NCBI GenBank assembly: GCA_014803415.1
Contig: JAAVBZ010000043.1
Location: 1 to 59,792, forward strand
DNA from: Lachnospiraceae bacterium
Lineage (GTDB): Bacteria > Bacillota > Clostridia > Lachnospirales > Lachnospiraceae
DNA length: 59,792 nucleotides
Direction: 5' to 3'
This document shows, one piece after another, positions 8,716 through 41,233 of this stretch. The first letter of the stretch is position 1. Each line of letters starts with the position of its first letter. The translations under genes and the position numbers were made by a program. The notes under the pieces are model-generated. The model searched no databases and had not been told where the DNA came from. It was given only the letters and a program-made list of their open reading frames with translations.

Positions 8716-9249
8716 CTACTGCTTTATTAAATATTTTACTGGTACTTTTTTGGTAAGCCATACTCCATTCTTCGACAAATAAAACTTATATCCGTCTTTA
8801 TACATTTCATCTGCTTTTATGATATAAAGAACTGATTTCCCATGACGCTTTCCAACCTTCACCGCAGTTTCCTCATCTTTTGACAAATGCACATATAATC
8901 TGCTCATAGGTATAAGCCCCTGTTCATCAATAGAAGATACATATTTTTCACCTATTCCATGCCATAGCTTTACCGGCGGTTCCACCTCGTCAAGCTCCAC
9001 ATCAACTGGTATGGAATGACCTTGATTAGCTCTGATCAATGTCTTATCTTCACTAAAAGAATATCTCTGTTTCTCATCCGTATCGACAATCTCTTCCAGA
9101 ATATCCATATTGATCTCATGGGTTTTTGCAATTCCTGCAATCAGCTCATCTACATTAGCCCAGCCATGTTCATCCAGACTGATACCTATTGTTTCCGGCT
9201 TATGACGAAGAATCAAACTTATGAATTTGCTTGTACCTGTTAAACTCAA
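8716..9249 (-). CDS. kptA: RNA 2'-phosphotransferase (Tpt1/KptA family)
   Basis: KptA removes an internal RNA 2'-phosphate with NAD+, giving ADP-ribose 1'',2''-cyclic phosphate. The product is 177 residues, full length for the family. Visible family residues are R15-H16 in LILRHKP, HGWANVDELI (28-37), R73 in IRANQGHS (73-79), and R117 in SRLYVHLS. These fit the Arg-His-Arg-Arg set of Tpt1 enzymes. The usual H-G-T motif reads HGIG at 97-100, a substitution worth noting. It follows the 459-residue gene by 12 bases, probably in one transcript. Bacteria lack the eukaryal tRNA-splicing substrate, so the native target is unknown. Confidence 0.9.
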   Translation of the reverse strand: MSLTGTSKFISLILRHKPETIGISLDEHGWANVDELIAGIAKTHEINMDILEEIVDTDEKQRYSFSEDKTLIRANQGHSIPVDVELDEVEPPVKLWHGIGEKYVSSIDEQGLIPMSRLYVHLSKDEETAVKVGKRHGKSVLYIIKADEMYKDGYKFYLSKNGVWLTKKVPVKYLIKQ

Positions 9250-11113: not shown

Positions 11114-11628
11114 AAAATATTACCCCATGTCAATTCAACACATTTCAAATTCATGCCAAAGCCTTGCATAAGCTGTAATTTTTCTTGGCCATAAGCTATG
11201 CTCTTTGCTTGGCTTGAACACCATATTTTCGATATATTTACATTATACCTTTTTCTATTAACAGGTAAAAGAAGAATATATGTAAAACAAAGGCCAGCAG
11301 CTTATTCCATCGTTAGCCCAAGCAAATTCAGAAAACTATCCAATTTGGAAACAAAAAAGCGGCTGGCTCCAGTAATGCCCTGAATCCCACCCAACCTTTT
11401 ACGTCCCTTCTTCCACAATTATCTAAAATTTCTATTGCTTCTTCAATGAGTTTGGCATACACTACAATTGAAGAAATCAATGATTTCATTTGGGCTGGTC
11501 GTAAGACCCAGGTCCATCAATGGCGGGGAAGTTCCCCGCCATTTTTTACAAATCCGCCATTTCAAAGCTGAACATGAAGCTTTCCTATCTGAATCTTGAT
11601 AGTGGCGTTCATGCAATTTGCAAGAACT
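11114..11628. other. 515-base intergenic region without a supported gene
   Basis: No convincing gene is visible on either strand; only short open frames of low-complexity, stop-rich sequence occur. It contains the strong hairpin terminator at 11519-11547 but no plus-strand gene that the terminator would serve. This suggests leftover sequence from a lost element between the kptA cluster and the ABC exporter. Confidence 0.5.
11519..11547 (+). terminator. strong rho-independent terminator
   Basis: AATGGCGGGGAA (11519-11530) is the exact reverse complement of TTCCCCGCCATT (11532-11543), followed by a T run on the plus strand. It is orphaned: no plus-strand gene precedes it within 1 kb. Confidence 0.75.
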
Positions 11629-18824: not shown

Positions 18825-18911
18825 TATTTTGTGATGTGCTATTTACAATGAAAATTCTACTAACTGCAATTTTACCATAGTTTTATGCTTCCGGGTAGAT
18901 TTTCCGAAAAT
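18825..18911 (+). repeat. dispersed 87-bp repeat, copy 1
   Basis: About 87 bases, from TATTTTGTGAT to GATTTTCCGAAAAT, recur at 35155-35241 in the same orientation with roughly seven mismatches. On the minus strand both copies end a short open frame in ENLPGSIKL[W/F] and stop, so the repeat may be the 3' end of a decayed mobile-element gene or a non-autonomous element. Confidence 0.7.
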
Positions 18912-33229: not shown

Positions 33230-34276
33230 TCACTTCAACCTGTAATAGCAGGTATTCTTCCCAGAGCCTTCTCGTTTCAATTCACCGGATGCGACCAACT
33301 TACGGAAAGCGCCTTCGATGGAACTTATACTGAGAGACGGACAAAGTTCACGAATGTCCTGCTTGGTAAAACGACCGATTTTATTCATTGTGGCACGCCT
33401 TACTGTTTCCAAAGCTGGCCGTTTTGTTTCTACCAACGCAAAGCGGTCTTCAAAATCCTTGTAGGCTGCAAGAACAGTTCCAAGCAGATATTTTATAAAT
33501 GGAACATCGTCCTCAGTGCCATCATGCCATCCATTTTGTGCCTGACCGAGTGCGTCATAATAGAGGTCTTTGTTTTTAGCAATTTTAGCCTCAAGAGAAA
33601 TATACTTCCCAACATAAAAGCCGTTTCGATATAACAATAATGTTGTGAGTAGTCGACTCATCCTACCGTTGCCATTGTTAAAGGGATGAATACACAGAAA
33701 ATCGTGAATAAATACAGGAATCGCAATCAACGGTTCGACTTCCATATTTCCGATGACACGATTGTATTCCTCACAGATTCTGTCCAATGCTTCAGGTATT
33801 TCATAAGGGGCAAGCGGAGTAAATAAGGTCTCCACATGACCGTCCGGACAAGTAGCACTGATGTAGTTCTGCATACTTTTAGTTCTGCCTGCCATAGGAT
33901 TATTCATATGGCTGTAAAGAATTTTATGAAGTTGCAAAATATAATTCTGTGAAATGGGAACCACATCAAAACTTTCGTGAAGGATATTTAGCACATCACG
34001 GTAACCTGCGATTTCCTGTTCATCACGGTTTTTAGGTGTTGTTTTTTCTTTCACCAACTGCTTAATACGGGTACTTGTTGTTACAATACCTTCAATAGCA
34101 TTGGATGCTTCGGTACTTTGTATCTTTGCAATCTCAACCAGCTTTTCAAGTTCTTCCGGTCTTTGTTTTAAGCACATTTCCTGTTTTCCAGCTCCTTTAT
34201 ATATTGCCGCAATCAGACTCAGGATATCTGAATCCCACTTTTGATTCTTAATCTCAGAATAATTAAAAGTTCTCAT
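33230..34276 (-). CDS. Fic-domain protein with self-inhibitory helix
   Basis: This 348-residue protein has the complete Fic motif HPFNNGNGRMSR starting at H197 and the flap YISATCPDGHVETLFTPL. The class II inhibitory motif is S58-N-A-I-E62-G63, so activity is held off in cis. The C-terminal winged helix (SLSISSIEGAFRKLVASGELKREG) suits DNA binding. It probably adenylylates a protein on Ser, Thr or Tyr. The promoter region and the sequence after the stop share the TAAGGGAA motif, suggesting autoregulation through the C-terminal domain. No partner gene is adjacent. Confidence 0.9.
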   Translation of the reverse strand: MRTFNYSEIKNQKWDSDILSLIAAIYKGAGKQEMCLKQRPEELEKLVEIAKIQSTEASNAIEGIVTTSTRIKQLVKEKTTPKNRDEQEIAGYRDVLNILHESFDVVPISQNYILQLHKILYSHMNNPMAGRTKSMQNYISATCPDGHVETLFTPLAPYEIPEALDRICEEYNRVIGNMEVEPLIAIPVFIHDFLCIHPFNNGNGRMSRLLTTLLLYRNGFYVGKYISLEAKIAKNKDLYYDALGQAQNGWHDGTEDDVPFIKYLLGTVLAAYKDFEDRFALVETKRPALETVRRATMNKIGRFTKQDIRELCPSLSISSIEGAFRKLVASGELKREGSGKNTCYYRLK

Positions 34277-34555: not shown

Positions 34556-35083
34556 CAGAATTTTGGAAATAGCGACATTACGTATGCCGGCAGACTTCTT
34601 GATACAGGAACCATCGAACGGCTTGCCGAGTGTAGCTGGATCGAGGAAGGAAGAAACCTTCTTATTACCAGAAGCACAGGCTCAGGGAAAACATATATTT
34701 CCAATGCACTGTGCATAAGTGCACTCAGAAAGTTCCACACGGTCAAGTATATAAAAGCGAGCACCTTGATCTATGAACTGGAGCAGGCAGAGGTTACCGG
34801 TGAGTATCTGAGCTGCACACAGAAGATATCAGCATTTGATCTTCTGGTGATCGATGACTTCGGCTTCATGGAACTTGACATTGATAAATGTCGAAATCTC
34901 TTTGAAGTAATAGACAGCAGAGACTGCCACCGTTCTACCATGGTGATCTCACAGTTCCTTGTTGGTAGTTGGTATGAAATATTTAAGGATAGTACCTATG
35001 CAAATGCCTGCATGGATCGCATCATCCATAATGCATACCGGCTTGAATTTAACGGAAGGAATATGAGAAATCCTTCCAAGTAA
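34553..35083 (+). pseudogene. 5'-truncated IstB (IS21-family helper ATPase)
   Basis: The frame is open from 34553 after a TAA and has no start codon with a ribosome site. It encodes the C-terminal two thirds of IstB: DITYAGRLLDTGTIERLAEC, SWIEEGRNLLITRSTGSGKT (Walker A with R for the first G), then FDLLVIDDFGFMEL (Walker B), RSTMVISQFLVGSWYEIF, and a normal C-terminus. The N-terminal ~60-80 residues and the IstA transposase are missing, so this is a dead IS21 remnant. The TGGTCA..TTCGACCGAATT tail that usually ends such elements follows. Confidence 0.8.
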
Positions 35084-35154: not shown

Positions 35155-35241
35155 TATTTTGTGATCTGCTATTTGCAATGAAAATTCTACTAACTGCAAT
35201 TCTAAAATAGTTTTATGCTTCCGGGTAGATTTTCCGGAAAT
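35155..35241 (+). repeat. dispersed 87-bp repeat, copy 2
   Basis: This matches 18825-18911 with about seven differences. It lies between the IstB remnant and the silent hsdS, just outside the invertible segment. On the minus strand a short frame ends in NLPGSIKLF. Confidence 0.7.
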
Positions 35242-35295
35242 ACATTATTTTCTATTTGCATATTAATCTTAAGCGGAAATAGAAAAAAAGAATTC

Positions 35296-35390
35296 ATAAT
35301 TTGCATTATGAGAAGTTCCAGGACGGGACTGTAAAATGTATTGAGGATGAGATACCTTTTGAAGTACCGGAGGGGTGGGAGTGGTGCAGA
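35296..35390. repeat. inversion repeat IR1, left copy (95 bp)
   Basis: Identical, in inverted orientation, to 39501-39595 over 95 bases, from ATAATTTGCATTATGAG to GAGTGGTGCAGA. It encodes the conserved start of the first HsdS target domain (HYEKFQDGTVKCIEDE and following). Confidence 0.95.
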
Positions 35391-36665
35391 GTTAGAAACA
35401 TTTCTTCTGTAAAAGGTGGAAAGCGTTTGCCTAAGGGTATGATGTTTTCTGATATAATTACTAATCATGCATATATTCGTGTTACTGACATGAAAAACCG
35501 TTCTATAAATAAAATAGGATTGAAATACATTTCTGATGAGGTCTTTTCTTCAATAAAGGCATATACTATTTCGAAAGATGATTTATATGTAACAATAGCT
35601 GGGACAATAGGTGTTGTTGGCGAAATCCCTGATGAGTTAAATGGCTCAAATTTGACAGAAAATGCAGTTAAAGTATGTAATATATTTATTAACAAAACAT
35701 ATCTTTGCTATATTTTATTGAGTACATTTGTTCAAGAGCAATTTCAAGATAAAACACATCAAGTAGCAATGCCAAAGCTAGCTCTTGAAAGAATATTGAG
35801 TACACTCATACCTATTGCACCTATAAGAAAACAAAGTGATATTGTACAAACCGTCGAAAATGTAATGTATATTATAGATGAAATTGAGATAAATAAAAAT
35901 GAGTTGGAAACAAAAATAATGCAAATAAAATCTAAAATTCTAGATTTTGCTATCCGTGGTAAACTTGTTCCACAAAATCCAGACGATGAATCGGCATCAG
36001 TTCTACTAGATCGTATACGAGTAGAAAAAGAAGAACTCATCAAACAAGGCAAAATCAAGCGAGATAAACAGGAATCCATCATCTTTCGTGGTGATGATAA
36101 CTCTTATTATGAGAAGATAGGCGATACTATTGAAAACATCGATTCAATTATTCCGTTTAACATTCCGGATAATTGGGAATTTATTCGGTTTAAAGAGCTA
36201 TGGGAATTGATTTCGGGAAGAGATTTATCACCTGCAGAATACAATGAAAAAAATATAGGTATTCCATATATTACAGGTGCAAGCAATTTTAACAAGGGAA
36301 ATATAGAATTAGTCAGATGGACATCAAATCCGCAAGTCATCACGCATACTGGTGACTTGCTCATTACATGTAAAGGTACAATAGGTGAAATGGCATTTAA
36401 TTATTTTGGAGATGCGCATATTGCACGTCAAATTATGGCAATTCGTAATATTTTTAACCTGAATGCTGAATATTTGTCATTATGTATTTTTTATTACATA
36501 AATACTATTAAGAGGTCTGCTAAAGGATTAATCCCTGGTATATCAAGAGAGGATATTCTAAATCTAATCCTTCCACTGCCACCAGTAGATTATCAAAATG
36601 AAGTTGCTTTATATATCAAAAAAACAAATGATGTGTTGCATTTAATGGAGAAGAGTCTCATCTGA
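35301..36665 (+). CDS. hsdS: silent HsdS cassette (specificity subunit without N-terminus)
   Basis: This is the second specificity gene, pointing opposite to the active one. It starts exactly at the 95-bp repeat, has no ribosome site, promoter or N-terminal helix, and should not be expressed where it is. It holds two different target-recognition domains: TRD1 about codons 30-190 (RVRNISSVKGGKRLPKG and on), a central conserved helix region with the 68-bp repeat, and TRD2 (RFKELWELISGRDLSPAEY and on) to the stop. Inversion at the repeats would bring it behind the expressed N-terminus. The central AIRGKLVPQNPDDESASVLL is the standard HsdS spacer. Confidence 0.9.
   Translation: MHYEKFQDGTVKCIEDEIPFEVPEGWEWCRVRNISSVKGGKRLPKGMMFSDIITNHAYIRVTDMKNRSINKIGLKYISDEVFSSIKAYTISKDDLYVTIAGTIGVVGEIPDELNGSNLTENAVKVCNIFINKTYLCYILLSTFVQEQFQDKTHQVAMPKLALERILSTLIPIAPIRKQSDIVQTVENVMYIIDEIEINKNELETKIMQIKSKILDFAIRGKLVPQNPDDESASVLLDRIRVEKEELIKQGKIKRDKQESIIFRGDDNSYYEKIGDTIENIDSIIPFNIPDNWEFIRFKELWELISGRDLSPAEYNEKNIGIPYITGASNFNKGNIELVRWTSNPQVITHTGDLLITCKGTIGEMAFNYFGDAHIARQIMAIRNIFNLNAEYLSLCIFYYINTIKRSAKGLIPGISREDILNLILPLPPVDYQNEVALYIKKTNDVLHLMEKSLI
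36045..36112. repeat. inversion repeat IR2, left copy (68 bp)
   Basis: Identical, inverted, to 38770-38837 over 68 bases, from CAAGGCAAAATCAAGCG to CTCTTATTATGA. It lies between TRD1 and TRD2 in both hsdS alleles. Confidence 0.95.
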
Positions 36666-37240
36666 GGTTCTTCTCCAACGTATACATAATGGAAAATGCT
36701 ACAGTTAATGGTGCAATTATTCTTAGTTGCTCATTGCACGGCGGAATTGGAACAAGCATTTCTTTTAAGGTAAGTGGTTTAGGTTCTTATTGATTAGTAG
36801 ACCCTTTACCCTTCTGTTCTAATTCACACTGATTCGCGTTTATAAATATATATATAATTTTATTATACTATGTATGCGAATAACTGTAACATGAATGAGA
36901 ATCTGAGACTATTGATAGGTTTAAACAATTGTCTTCAGAATGATAAATTCCAACACATCCTAATGTACCAATTCCAGTAGAATTAATCACAATATCACCG
37001 TCTAGTACATGTTCGTCAAATGGATATTTTCCCAATATACTTTCGTCAAAATACTGTACCTATCTAACATCAATTCCATTATATTTTGTATTGCATTTTT
37101 GTGCAAAAACGAGTGTATTGCTCTCATCAATATATTTGGGGCTTTTTTCTCTATGGATTTCTTTTATACAACAGTTATCTTATCCACTCCCACGCAACAG
37201 GTGTTTCATGGGGTATTTCTTCGTCTATACAACATGTTTC
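36665..37240 (-). pseudogene. decayed third hsdS half-gene
   Basis: Minus-strand frames, broken by stops and frameshifts, match a target-recognition domain end to end. CIDEEIPHETPVAWEWIR (37235-37181, then a stop), KYIDESNTLVFAQKCNTKY, FDEHVLDGDIVINSTG followed by IGTLGCVGIYHSEDN, and finally KEMLVPIPPCNEQLRII with FSIMYTLEKNL near 36665-36760 are all recognisable. No start or intact reading frame remains. It lies between the silent hsdS and the recombinase, so it is a retired cassette of the same shuffling locus. Confidence 0.75.
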
Positions 37241-37344
37241 ACTACCTATCTTCTTGTAATAAGAGAAACACAGAATTTTGTATCATATTATAATTCCAAT
37301 TAACAAAGAATTTCGCTATCACTAATATCAATTGGAGGTATAAG

Positions 37345-38148
37345 ATGAAAGAATCATTTGAAAATTATTTGAAAAAGGAAAATCTATCGCAACATACGAT
37401 TTCAGTGTATTTATGGACAGTGAACTATTATCTAACTAATTATAAGGACTTTAATATCGAGAATCTTCACGCATATAAAGGATACTTAATGGAATTTTTT
37501 AATCCCAAAACGGTAAATCTTAGAATTCAAGCCATCAATAAATATCTAGGTTATATTGGGAAGGAAAAATTACGGTTAAGTGCGGTTAAAATCCAACAAA
37601 AGACGTTTCTTGAAAACGTAGTAAGCAATGCAGATTATGCATTTTTAAAGAAACAACTGAAAAAAGATGGTAATATGCAGTGGTACTTTGTTGTATGGTA
37701 TTTGGGTGCTACTGGAGCAAGAGTGAGTGAACTTATTCGCATTAAGATTGAGCATGTCAATTTTGGATATTTCGATTTATACAGTAAAGGTGGCAAGCTT
37801 CGCCGATTATATATTCCAAAGATGCTTAGGGAAGAAACGCAGAAATGGCTATCAGAAGAACAACGCACGACCGGCTATTTGTTTTTGAATCGTTTCGGGG
37901 AGCGTATTACTGCTCGCGGAATATCCCAACAGCTTAAAAATTATGCTGACAAATATGGCTTGGATTCCAAAGTAATATATCCACACTCGTTCAGACATTT
38001 GTATGCGAAAAACTTTTTGGAAAAGTACAATGATATTGCATTGCTTGCCGATTTGATGGGGCATGAGAGCATAGAAACGACAAGAATCTATCTGAGAAGA
38101 ACTGCTACAGAGCAGCAATCCTTGATTGATAAGATTGTTACATGGTAA
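37345..38148 (+). CDS. tyrosine recombinase, HsdS invertase
   Basis: This 267-residue site-specific recombinase has an N-terminal SAM-like core-binding domain (residues 1-85) and a catalytic domain with R126 in TGARVSELIRI, probable K151 near SKGGKLRRL, H214-S-F-R217, H240 in LMGHESIETT, and the nucleophile Y249. Recombinases of this kind beside hsdS in other Firmicutes invert hsdS segments through inverted repeats. It lies inside both repeat pairs, so it flips with the DNA. It has a GGAGG site, and a bidirectional terminator separates it from the convergent hsdS. Confidence 0.9.
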   Translation: MKESFENYLKKENLSQHTISVYLWTVNYYLTNYKDFNIENLHAYKGYLMEFFNPKTVNLRIQAINKYLGYIGKEKLRLSAVKIQQKTFLENVVSNADYAFLKKQLKKDGNMQWYFVVWYLGATGARVSELIRIKIEHVNFGYFDLYSKGGKLRRLYIPKMLREETQKWLSEEQRTTGYLFLNRFGERITARGISQQLKNYADKYGLDSKVIYPHSFRHLYAKNFLEKYNDIALLADLMGHESIETTRIYLRRTATEQQSLIDKIVTW

Positions 38149-38153
38149 TAGTT

Positions 38154-38179
38154 CAGCCGCCCTCGAGAGAAGGCGGCTG
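38154..38179. terminator. terminator between recombinase and hsdS
   Basis: CAGCCGCC pairs with GGCGGCTG around a 10-base loop; T residues follow on the plus strand. It sits between convergent genes and can serve both. Confidence 0.75.
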
Positions 38180-38183
38180 TTTG

Positions 38184-39788
38184 TTAAGATAGTGCTCCTA
38201 ATATTTCATCAAAATTTTGCCAAGCCCTTTCTGTTATTCTTGTTATTCTTTGCTGTTCCGCATATGGAGATATTGGAATTAATGTTCTTCGAATATGTTC
38301 CAAATGCAAATTGGGAACGCCGATTCCCTTTAAGGATTTATTAAAATATTCTTGGACATAACTGCAACCTATGACATTTAAAATATATTGTGAATCAATC
38401 AATCTACCTGCAATTCTAATGAGAGCAAGACTAACATAGATATCAAAAATAACATCTCTATCTACAATCGCAGCAACCCCTGTAGTGCCATTTTTGGCAA
38501 GAAGAATATCTCCTTTTATTGGTGCTAAACGATTATACAATTCTGTATGCAATGACTCGGGTATATACATAATATTTTCCCAATCAATTTTTCCGGTAGT
38601 TACATTTTTGGACGATAGAAAAATATACCCTCTATCGCAGTATTGAGGTGTTTTATGTGTACCGTCTGTTAATATTGAGGATACATTTTGTAATCTAGTC
38701 CACTCCCATCCTTCTGGTAATTCAAAAGGAAGTTCATCATCTATGCAAACTGTATTTCCGTTAATGGTTTCATAATAAGAGTTATCATCACCACGAAAGA
38801 TGATGGATTCCTGTTTATCTCGCTTGATTTTGCCTTGCTTTATCAGTTTCTCTTTCTCTGCTCGAATACTTTCTAAGAGAATTGAAGCGGGTTCGTCATT
38901 CGGCTCTTGTTTTACAAGCTGCCCTCGGATGGCGAGGTCAAGAATCTTTGTTTTTGCATTACCAATTAAACAATGTAGTTCCTCTTTGCGCGCGCTCATA
39001 TCATCTACTAATGCTAATATTTTTTCAACAGATAAAGCGATATTTATTTGTTCTTTTAATGGTGGCAACACACATAAATATGTCATAGCTATTGAAATTG
39101 TAATGGTGTCAACGGTTGTTCCTTTCGAGTTACGTATCATTTGCTGTTGTAAAAACGATGATTCAAACATTATTTTTGCATATTTTGAATCTATTATTTT
39201 GTTTATATTCTGAAAACATATTACGGATGCATCTTTGTAATAAAAACGATCCTCCTTCTTTACTATATACACTTTGCCGATTGTACCAACTGCCGATACC
39301 ATCAAATCGTTTTCTTGAGGTATCCCATAATTTTGAATCATATCTTGATAATGTTCTTCAGCTATAAATAGTTCATTTTCAACATAGTTATTTTCTGCAA
39401 GTTTAACAATTTCTCTAGCACGATAAAACGGAACACCTTCTGTTTTCCAATCAGACTGGAGCACTCTTTTAGCAGAGCAAACAGAAAATAAGTCATTTAA
39501 TCTGCACCACTCCCACCCCTCCGGTACTTCAAAAGGTATCTCATCCTCAATACATTTTACAGTCCCGTCCTGGAACTTCTCATAATGCAAATTATCCTCA
39601 CCCACAAAGATAATCGTATCGTTCTTTATATCCTTTGCTTTCAGCTTTCCACCCCTTACCATCTGCTGTTTTTCGGCACGAACTCTCTCAAGAAGAACCG
39701 ATGCCGGTTCATCATTCGGATCTTGTGGAACTAACTTTCCGCGAATAGCCAAATCCAAAATTTTCTGGCGCAGCGCTTTTGTATTCAT
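38184..39788 (-). CDS. hsdS: type I restriction-modification specificity subunit HsdS (expressed allele)
   Basis: This 534-residue subunit sets the DNA sequence cut or methylated by the HsdRMS complex. The N-terminal helix and linker (MNTKALRQKILDLAIRGKLV, DEPASVLLERVRAEKQQMV) precede TRD1 (about 88-250). The central conserved helices (DLAIRGQLVKQEPNDEPASILL) are at about 283-305, and TRD2 is at about 345-500. The central and N-terminal copies of the same helix show the usual pseudo-twofold design. The start abuts the hsdM stop. The gene contains one copy of each inversion repeat. Confidence 0.95.
   Translation of the reverse strand: MNTKALRQKILDLAIRGKLVPQDPNDEPASVLLERVRAEKQQMVRGGKLKAKDIKNDTIIFVGEDNLHYEKFQDGTVKCIEDEIPFEVPEGWEWCRLNDLFSVCSAKRVLQSDWKTEGVPFYRAREIVKLAENNYVENELFIAEEHYQDMIQNYGIPQENDLMVSAVGTIGKVYIVKKEDRFYYKDASVICFQNINKIIDSKYAKIMFESSFLQQQMIRNSKGTTVDTITISIAMTYLCVLPPLKEQINIALSVEKILALVDDMSARKEELHCLIGNAKTKILDLAIRGQLVKQEPNDEPASILLESIRAEKEKLIKQGKIKRDKQESIIFRGDDNSYYETINGNTVCIDDELPFELPEGWEWTRLQNVSSILTDGTHKTPQYCDRGYIFLSSKNVTTGKIDWENIMYIPESLHTELYNRLAPIKGDILLAKNGTTGVAAIVDRDVIFDIYVSLALIRIAGRLIDSQYILNVIGCSYVQEYFNKSLKGIGVPNLHLEHIRRTLIPISPYAEQQRITRITERAWQNFDEILGALS
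38770..38837. repeat. inversion repeat IR2, right copy (68 bp)
   Basis: Exact inverted copy of 36045-36112. Recombination here would swap only TRD2 of the active hsdS with that of the silent one. Confidence 0.95.
39501..39595. repeat. inversion repeat IR1, right copy (95 bp)
   Basis: Exact inverted copy of 35296-35390, inside the active hsdS. Recombination here would swap everything behind the HsdS N-terminus, both TRDs, in a 4.3-kb inversion. Confidence 0.95.
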
Positions 39789-41233
39789 TAGACATCTTCC
39801 TCCAAATCTCCAATCAAACTTTTAAGAGCTGCAACTGCACTATTGATATTTGAGGCTTTTTCTTCAATTTCAGCAAAAAGCTCTGCAAGCGTTCTGTCAT
39901 CTGCACCGTTCTCAGAGCGAATCCATGTAATATCCAAACTTGTCTTATTTCTAGTAAGAATATCCTTCTCATAATCAAACTTTCTCCAACGTCCATTAGG
40001 ATTTTCATCAGACCATGTTTCCTTACGTTCTTCCATGTGTCCTGTGCAATAACATTCAACAAACTCATCAAAATGTCTTCTTGTAAGAGGATTTGTTTTA
40101 CCAAAAGACGGCATATTAGAACGAAGATCATAAATCCATACAGATTTCGTATTTCCCTTATCTTTAGTCCCTTTATGAAAAAAAAGAACATTTGTCTTAA
40201 CTCCCTGCGCATAAAAAATTCCTGTTGGAAGCCTCAAAATGGTATGAAGATTACATTTTTCCATTAAATCTCTACGGATTTTCTCACCGTCATTATCCGC
40301 AAATAATACATTGTCCGGCAGAACGACTGCTGCTCTCGCCTTTCCATCAGTATTGAGTGAACGATAAATATGCTGCAAAAAATTAAGCTGTTTATTACTT
40401 GTCATATAAGTCAGATCATCCCTGCTGGCACGTTCACCACCTTTCTTTGTTCCGAATGGAGGGTTTGTAAGCACAACATCATAATTCTTTAACACTTTAC
40501 CTTGATTAGATAAAGTATCACAAAGGTATATTTCACCCTCGATATCATGAAGCATAGCGTTCATCAGAGCAAGCCTGTGAGTTTCATGCACAAGTTCTGC
40601 ACCTGTGAATGCCTCATATTTTTGAAAATGTTGTTCATCTTCCGATAAACCAAATAAATCGTTTGTATGTTCTTTCACATATCTGTCAGCGGCAATCATA
40701 AATCCATATGTGCCACATGCAGGGTCATTACACTTTTCTCCCAGCTGCGGCGCAATAAGTTCCGTCATAACATCAATAAGAACACGTGGCGTAAAATACT
40801 GTCCCGCACCGGATTTTTTCTCGTTGGCGTTTTTCTCCAGTAGACCTTCATACAAATTTCCAAGTCCTTCTTCCTTAGCACTGTACCAATCAAGGTCATC
40901 AATGCTTGTAATAATTTTTTTCAGATTCGCCGGCTCGTCAATCTTACTGCTTGCACCGGAATAAATATGTTGAATTCTACCACTGCCGTTTTCACCCAGC
41001 TCCTGCAAAAGTGTTGCATAGAATTTTTTCAATTCAATACCATCTTTACTACATAGCCTGTCCCATCTGTATTCTGCCGGAATATTTTTTTCTGTCTTTG
41101 TTTCCTTTGCCATCTTCAGAAAAAGAATATAAGTAAGCTCTGTCACATAATCCTGATAGGTAATGCCGTCATCCCGAAGCACATTGCACAGATTCCAGAG
41201 CTTTGCCACAATTTCATTATTTGTCATTTTCAA
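39788..41233 (-). CDS. hsdM: type I DNA adenine methyltransferase HsdM
   Basis: This 481-residue subunit methylates adenine in the HsdS-chosen sequence using S-adenosylmethionine. The N-terminal helical HsdM domain (1-140) includes SGAGQYFTPRVLIDVM. SAM motif I reads DPACGTYGFMI at 170-180, with Tyr in place of the usual Gly, and catalytic motif IV NPPFG is at 257-261. A TGKARAAVVLPDNVLF segment follows. It sits 13 bases after hsdR, with hsdS downstream; its stop touches the hsdS start. Full length and intact. Confidence 0.95.
   Translation of the reverse strand: MKMTNNEIVAKLWNLCNVLRDDGITYQDYVTELTYILFLKMAKETKTEKNIPAEYRWDRLCSKDGIELKKFYATLLQELGENGSGRIQHIYSGASSKIDEPANLKKIITSIDDLDWYSAKEEGLGNLYEGLLEKNANEKKSGAGQYFTPRVLIDVMTELIAPQLGEKCNDPACGTYGFMIAADRYVKEHTNDLFGLSEDEQHFQKYEAFTGAELVHETHRLALMNAMLHDIEGEIYLCDTLSNQGKVLKNYDVVLTNPPFGTKKGGERASRDDLTYMTSNKQLNFLQHIYRSLNTDGKARAAVVLPDNVLFADNDGEKIRRDLMEKCNLHTILRLPTGIFYAQGVKTNVLFFHKGTKDKGNTKSVWIYDLRSNMPSFGKTNPLTRRHFDEFVECYCTGHMEERKETWSDENPNGRWRKFDYEKDILTRNKTSLDITWIRSENGADDRTLAELFAEIEEKASNINSAVAALKSLIGDLEEDV

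Follow-up and report, generated by a model that had tools for sequence, protein, structure and literature searches.

Introduction

In phase-variable type I restriction-modification (R-M) systems, switching changes both restriction and the methylome throughout a population, and the majority of known examples are from pathogens. Among the closest to the locus described here is the pneumococcal SpnIII (Spn556II, cod) locus, in which hsdSB has one target recognition domain and hsdSA and hsdSC have two (PMC4948785; this and the other papers are cited for the portions of their text that were available). A 10-bp sequence, ATTATGGGAA, is found in all three pneumococcal inverted repeats; the five letters before it are CTCTT in the repeats of 15 and 333 bp and GAAAC in that of 85 bp, and inversion at the 15-bp repeat requires the recombinase CreX (PMC6620402). 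Inversion by this enzyme, under its other name PsrA, has been reported in vitro at all three repeats; the 15 bp and adjacent upstream sequence are needed, and so are IR1-like sequences in the longer repeats (PMC7096588). In this work we analysed a stretch of 59,792 bp (hereafter the window), the forward strand of contig JAAVBZ010000043.1 of a Lachnospiraceae bacterium (GCA_014803415.1; genome of 4.26 Mb), which carries a type I R-M system with an expressed hsdS, an oppositely oriented silent hsdS and a tyrosine recombinase. It is very likely that the best explanation of this locus would be recombinase-driven shuffling at dif-like sites with two different overlaps. The dif site itself consists of two 11-bp half sites around a 6-bp centre, in which exchange occurs (PMC5357621).

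Results

A predicted 28-bp site with two kinds of centre

A search with the recombinase of the window gave 80 related loci (L numbers below) with 64-95% identity to it, from Bacillota and Bacteroidota and, as single loci, from genomes labelled Spirochaetota, Synergistota, Myxococcota and Mycoplasmatota; many are metagenome bins, whose taxon labels may be wrong. A scan that started from the arms of the window sites, with the centre masked, converged on the 28-mer GGTGAGGATAA-NNNNNN-TTATGAGAAGT around the recombinases of the relatives. Within 3 kb of a recombinase (445,278 bp) there were 182 strong hits, versus 8 in the more distant 562,081 bp; the total was 190, versus 3 in block-shuffled sequence, the arms having been trained on the same loci that were scanned. 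The exact pattern occurs twice in the genome of this organism, both times at the locus; with three mismatches allowed there are three more sites, one of them at the locus, versus two for a backward control. It was found in 3 of 295 genomes of the order, this one included, and in four viral-contig stretches, and the six exact matches outside the window (L120-L125) all sit in hsdS-like genes.

The sites were classed by position as outer left or right (site 1 in the window), inner left or right (site 2) and third. Across 81 loci, which are related and partly exchanged so that the counts are not independent, the central hexamer was identical within 27 of 27 outer pairs and 31 of 31 inner pairs, and the third site agreed with the left inner site in 24/24 cases and with the right inner site in 22/22. 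Outer and inner hexamers of one locus agreed in none of 31 and none of 32 comparisons. When hexamers were shuffled among loci, none of 20,000 permutations reached any of the four matches. Two sites were placed by hand, the third site of the window (in the third-site counts) and the left inner site of L072 (in the inner and the outer/inner counts); without the former, the third-site counts are 23/23 and 21/21. The hexamer sets are lineage-specific, and the copies of one locus all change in step. Most Bacillota have TTTGCA or TTTACA with CTCTTA, further sets include TCGCCA with CTGCTA and TTGCTA with CTGTTA, and Bacteroidales have TTCCCA or TTCTCA beside the recombinase and CAAGTA elsewhere.

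Identity between copies reaches background left of ATAA in outer pairs and right of TTAT in inner pairs, and the interval common to the copies is the centre with its inner arm letters. Between right inner and third copies, complete agreement is confined to the hexamer and two positions of TTAT. As copy identity drops to background just outside the centre, the crossover would lie in or beside the hexamer. The 11-6-11 layout of the predicted sites and these boundaries are compatible with the design of dif. Moreover, the outer and inner sites within each hsdS are direct repeats, and thus the first domain would be lost if they recombined with each other. We infer that two non-interchangeable overlaps would let one recombinase exchange each domain while hsdS stays undeleted.

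Repeats of the window and their predicted products

The original prediction described 95-bp (IR1) and 68-bp (IR2) inverted repeats identical between the two hsdS genes, with a tyrosine recombinase between them. Both statements are borne out: the repeats are exact, the window holds no other exact inverted repeat of at least 24 bp, and the open reading frame (ORF) between them matches PF00589. With mismatches allowed, the repeats grow to 115 nucleotides (93%) and 186 nucleotides (80%). When 115 bp from the outer repeat served as a query, the whole genome gave two matches, both at the locus. A chance origin of the repeats was therefore rejected, as they are the only exact ones of that length in the window and the outer query matches solely here. 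Inversion in silico left HsdS open at 520 amino acids (IR1), 523 (IR2) or 531 (both), versus 534 at present, whatever the order of the two inversions. Thus, as had been proposed, IR1 exchange would swap both domains and IR2 exchange only the second, and four HsdS combinations are possible; all of them are in frame. The claim that the repeats are specific to this genome did not hold, as their functional core is common to many other loci and to the pneumococcal repeats. Among the relatives, an exact inverted repeat of at least 20 bp spans the recombinase in 38 of 80 loci, and in 26 of the 36 that have at least 2.3 kb on both sides. The functional unit is probably something other than the long repeats, the 6-bp centre with its two 11-bp arms being the better candidate. 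Switching in this organism may be expected from this arrangement.

Inversions found among the relatives

Loci L033 and L034, both with a recombinase 95% identical to that of the window, differ by an inversion: positions 7726-8922 of L033 are the reverse complement of 8922-7726 of L034 over 1,197 bp with zero mismatches, and the flanks are collinear at 98.7 and 98.2% identity. The inverted and collinear blocks overlap by 16 bp (8907-8922), common to the left inner and the third site, which places the crossover within that interval; on both sides the inversion reaches outward as far as the first hexamer base. The perfect segment, versus 1.3-1.8% divergence of the flanks, suggests a recent cassette exchange between lineages. 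The 1,068-bp inversion that distinguishes L110 from L111 ends at the hexamer CAAGTA on one side and 7 bp past it on the other. Between L094 and L102 the two inner sites have traded their right arms, and the hsdM side of L042 is found across the recombinase from that of L058. Seven locus pairs passed the filter for similarity; four of them contain an inverted segment and three (L091/L092, L100/L104 and L046/L048) do not. Of the 43 loci with a recognisable hsdM, 22 have this gene on the left, 20 on the right and one elsewhere; for the 33 loci of the present layout, a count that leaves out L112, L056 and eight loci with both hsdS copies on one side of the recombinase, it is left of the recombinase in 14 and right in 19. 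Finding hsdM on either side is what free inversion predicts.

The domains themselves keep largely to their positions. Cross-locus domain pairs within versus between position classes number 19 versus 0 at 80% identity or more, 53 versus 8 at 70%, 121 versus 43 at 60% and 212 versus 95 at 50%, counts that, like those below, are not independent and have approximate denominators. This separation is strong for what would be recent exchange and incomplete over what would be long times, and pairs that stay in one class are consistent with different hexamers forbidding outer/inner exchange. Second domains to the right of the recombinase are set apart from the pool made up of the left and third ones, with 36 pairs within pools (26 left/third, 10 right) versus 0 between at 70% identity, 69 versus 7 at 60% and 110 versus 40 at 50%. 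A separate right pool is predicted, because the inner inversion turns the recombinase over along with the domains.

Genes of the locus and the third cassette

The coordinates of all features are given in the table. Complete hsdR, hsdM and hsdS form one minus-strand operon, in which hsdM starts with TTG at 41233 and its final base overlaps the hsdS start. The solved structures nearest to the expressed HsdS are 2y7c (EcoKI S) and 3okg. The silent hsdS is without the first approximately 65 codons of the expressed gene and so has no normal start. As the four target domains of the two genes are only 22-28% identical to each other, a domain swap should alter specificity. Residues R126, K151, H214, R217, H240 and Y249 of the recombinase, which we take to be catalytic, are invariant in 23 aligned sequences. 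A scan for sigma-70 promoters was uninformative (27 found versus 25.1 in shuffles).

Table. Features of the proposed shuffling locus in the window and the evidence for each
Feature	Position	Strand	Evidence
Site 1, silent side; hexamer TTTGCA at 35300-35305, left arm degenerate (predicted)	35289..35316	+	site scan
IR1, silent copy, 95 bp	35296..35390	+	exact repeat search
Silent hsdS, 454-amino-acid ORF	35301..36665	+	Pfam Methylase_S; homology to the expressed gene from 35296
IR2, silent copy, 68 bp	36045..36112	+	exact repeat search
Site 2, silent side; GGTGATGATAA-CTCTTA-TTATGAGAAGA, hexamer 36101-36106 (predicted)	36090..36117	+	site scan
Third hsdS cassette, second target domain only, decayed	~36664..37265	-	three-frame translation; tblastn of relatives' domains
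Remnant of third-cassette site; hexamer CTCTTA (37260-37265) and right arm TTACAAGAAG	37245..37265	-	own letters
Tyrosine recombinase, 267 amino acids, likely invertase	37345..38148	+	Pfam Phage_integrase PF00589; XerA/XerC/XerD-like
hsdS, expressed position, 534 amino acids, two target recognition domains	38184..39788	-	Pfam Methylase_S in two stretches; PADLOC Specificity_I
Site 2, expressed side; GGTGATGATAA-CTCTTA-TTATGAAACCA, hexamer 38776-38781, right arm degenerate (predicted)	38765..38792	-	site scan
IR2, expressed copy, 68 bp	38770..38837	-	exact repeat search
IR1, expressed copy, 95 bp	39501..39595	-	exact repeat search
Site 1, expressed side; GGTGAGGATAA-TTTGCA-TTATGAGAAGT, hexamer 39586-39591 (predicted)	39575..39602	-	site scan
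hsdM, methyltransferase subunit, 481 amino acids	39788..41233	-	Pfam N6_Mtase, HsdM_N; PADLOC MTase_I
hsdR, restriction subunit, 1080 amino acids	41247..44489	-	Pfam EcoEI_R_C, ResIII, HSDR_N; NCBIfam NF008521 (type I R-M endonuclease) above cut-off

Between the silent hsdS and the recombinase there is a third hsdS cassette, which the original prediction did not mention. It has a stop 29 codons past its site, a frame change near 37178 and further in-frame stops, and the four best matches of relatives' domains to it (tblastn) have 55-59% identity over 172-176 amino acids. The arm scan missed its site, which was placed by its own letters. In 23 of the 24 loci with left inner and third sites this cassette is open over 164-204 codons, the window being the exception. 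The ancestral layout, intact in relatives, would comprise two first and three second domains, giving six combinations as in pneumococcus.

Near the silent hsdS there is a fragment (34766-35083, 105 amino acids) of an IS21-type helper ATPase (IstB), corresponding to the C-terminal part of the profile. Two partly identical stretches in the same orientation (approximately 18846-18900 and 35176-35231, 13 shared 24-mers), the second ending approximately 65 bp before the silent hsdS, are perhaps the ends of a small mobile element. A Fic-domain protein is encoded beside the restriction locus (33230-34276; Pfam PF02661, PADLOC SoFic profile), and farther away the window has a match to the Rfam DUF3800-XI RNA (11491-11537; 68 bits versus a cut-off of 37.8).

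Some of the relatives depart from this layout. L051, L053, L054, L057 and others have 78-80% identity to the window in the recombinase and 85-86% in the HsdS N-terminus, but only 44-46% in HsdM, and the hsdS/recombinase cassette thus seems to combine with different R-M families. Eight loci (L087, L093, L094, L095, L102, L110, L111 and L108, one from Clostridia and the others from Bacteroidales) have the two hsdS copies on the same side of the recombinase, which would put the invertase outside the inverted segment; where a site was called beside it, the hexamer is mostly of the outer type. The recombinase frame of L062 (9001-9798) has one in-frame stop, and the locus retains all five sites. L071, L081, L091 and L092 (Lacrimispora, Hungatella and [Clostridium] aerotolerans) form a recombinase sub-clade with no recognisable hsdM or HsdS N-terminus nearby, L081 having just 69 bp on its right side; in three of the four a TACATA-centred pair and similar half-sites adjoin the recombinase, and this sub-clade may have another target. 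A second recombinase of the same genome (L113, 41% identical) was considered as a second shuffling locus and rejected, since hsdS and hsdM found no match there, its 16 kb contain zero exact inverted repeats of at least 16 bp and its neighbours are phage-like by eye.

Discussion

In Cre, Flp and Xer enzymes strand exchange requires that the overlaps match. According to our model the recombinase would act at sites of the dif type, each a 6-bp overlap between two 11-bp arms, which lie inside the repeats where each target domain begins. The overlap would be TTTGCA in outer and CTCTTA in inner sites, and exchange would need matching overlaps. Recombination between outer sites would swap both domains and turn the recombinase over relative to hsdM, and recombination between inner sites would swap the second domain. 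Exchange between an outer and an inner site would be barred by their unlike overlaps, avoiding deletion of the first domain, and up to four recognition specificities could arise in a clonal population.

On balance we favour a wider reading, in which one recombinase would have two mutually exclusive channels inside a coding gene: sites with the same dif-like arms and different 6-bp overlaps in the hsdS frame would keep first- and second-domain exchange apart and prevent deletion. This code would extend over several phyla within the recombinase family, the hexamer pairs differing by lineage, and would explain the 5-bp difference between pneumococcal repeats; the decayed third cassette might, if its site works, give a truncated HsdS of one domain.

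Several observations weigh against the shuffling model. One copy of each site pair has a degenerate arm, so recognition would be less symmetric than in dif. No site was called in 11 of the 80 recombinase loci, five of which have long flanks on both sides (L056, L075, L077, L091 and L092), and thus not every relative would use these sites. Domains have crossed between first and second positions in evolution (the 8 pairs of at least 70% identity, 43 at 60% and 95 at 50%), and the hexamer counts come from the related loci noted above. In pneumococcus, the 85-bp repeat was unaffected by loss of CreX, and RecA-independent inversion occurred without CreX (PMC6620402), a lack of effect in one group's hands that the overlap reading alone would not settle.

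It is rather unlikely that the agreement of hexamers reflects, instead of overlap pairing, a constraint on the protein (D-N-L-H-Y-E versus D-N-S-Y-Y-E) together with gene conversion. The residues encoded by the site are nearly invariant in the HsdS alignment, the outer and inner motifs do differ at the protein level, and certain codons beyond the site vary no more than those within it. However, in 36 left inner copies the share of the commonest codon is 0.82-1.00 (median 1.00) at the nine site codons versus 0.27-1.00 (median approximately 0.70, no formal test) at the 24 codons upstream. Moreover, third copies have no coding left side, and yet agreement begins at the hexamer (0.17 at position 10 and 1.00 at position 11), and the variants CTGTTA, CTGCTA, CTCGTA, CTCATA and CGATTA are each shared by every copy at their locus.

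That the locus is frozen, its repeats being kept by gene conversion or a recent duplication with no switching now, is unlikely. Among the 24 genomes compared the third cassette is a pseudogene only in this one, the right arm of its site has altered letters, and the IS21 helper remnant lies beside the silent hsdS; against this, the reading frames of the recombinase and of both two-domain hsdS genes remain open, each of the four sites is intact together with its hexamer, and the repeats show no mismatch. General homologous exchange, or another recombinase-independent exchange across the long repeats with the recombinase incidental, is very unlikely: it is favoured by repeats of 95 and 68 bp and by the inversions at the longer pneumococcal repeats that persist without CreX and without RecA, but the L033/L034 inversion joins sites that share only approximately 16 bp, too short for ordinary homologous exchange, hexamers agree exactly while their flanks are ragged, the recombinase retains its invariant residues and its place across phyla, and CreX is required at the 15-bp pneumococcal repeat.

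The two-hexamer code of the proposed recombinase-driven shuffling is the part of these findings worth pursuing. The comparison reduces a long inverted repeat to a 28-bp site with a readable code, so that active loci and permitted exchanges could be predictable from sequence, and the code bears on what PsrA/CreX recognises and on why only some of the repeats respond. A central-hexamer code for hsdS inversion was not found stated in the available portions of the literature searched, which does not establish priority; the nearest statement there is that of De Ste Croix 2019, with a 10-bp core and a 5-bp difference.

Comparison with known systems

With the Xer/dif systems (XerCD, XerA, XerH) the locus shares the recombinase fold family and, in its predicted sites, the 11-6-11 architecture (PMC5357621). 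It differs from them in that the recombinase, of 267 amino acids, would invert coding DNA, with several sites of two overlap types in a locus; a role in dimer resolution is not implied. Four-way type I systems of Streptococcus suis and others, surveyed in REBASE in 2020 (PMC7394358), likewise combine a pair of hsdS genes with repeats that lie ahead of the first domain and between the two; they have four alleles and often a recombinase in the locus. That survey concerns repeat length, and its available text does not name a core site.

By its layout the locus is an inverting type I R-M system of the SpnIII/cod type, a kind already known, in agreement with the earlier remark that recombinase-driven hsdS shuffling occurs elsewhere in Firmicutes. 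Like the pneumococcal system with PsrA (CreX), it has hsdR-hsdM-hsdS, a silent two-domain and a one-domain hsdS, a tyrosine recombinase and nested inverted repeats (15, 85 and 298/333 bp in pneumococcus), a comparison made on the published layout and printed repeat letters. The two-domain hsdS without a start has the opposite orientation to the expressed gene and shares the nested repeats with it, the tyrosine recombinase is in the locus and the products are in frame. The open one-domain cassette of the strict type, which gives six alleles, is decayed in the window. The core crossover letters are present: CTCTT and ATTATGAGAA at 36101-36115 differ by one letter from CTCTT and ATTATGGGAA, and the outer site has TTTGC before ATTATGAGAA where pneumococcus has GAAAC. 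We infer that the five pneumococcal letters and the next A may be the exchange overlap, which fits the need for the 15 bp with upstream sequence and the IR1-like sequences in the longer repeats. What the comparison adds to this known kind of system is the decayed third cassette, the predicted site with its two-hexamer code and the natural inversions at that site.

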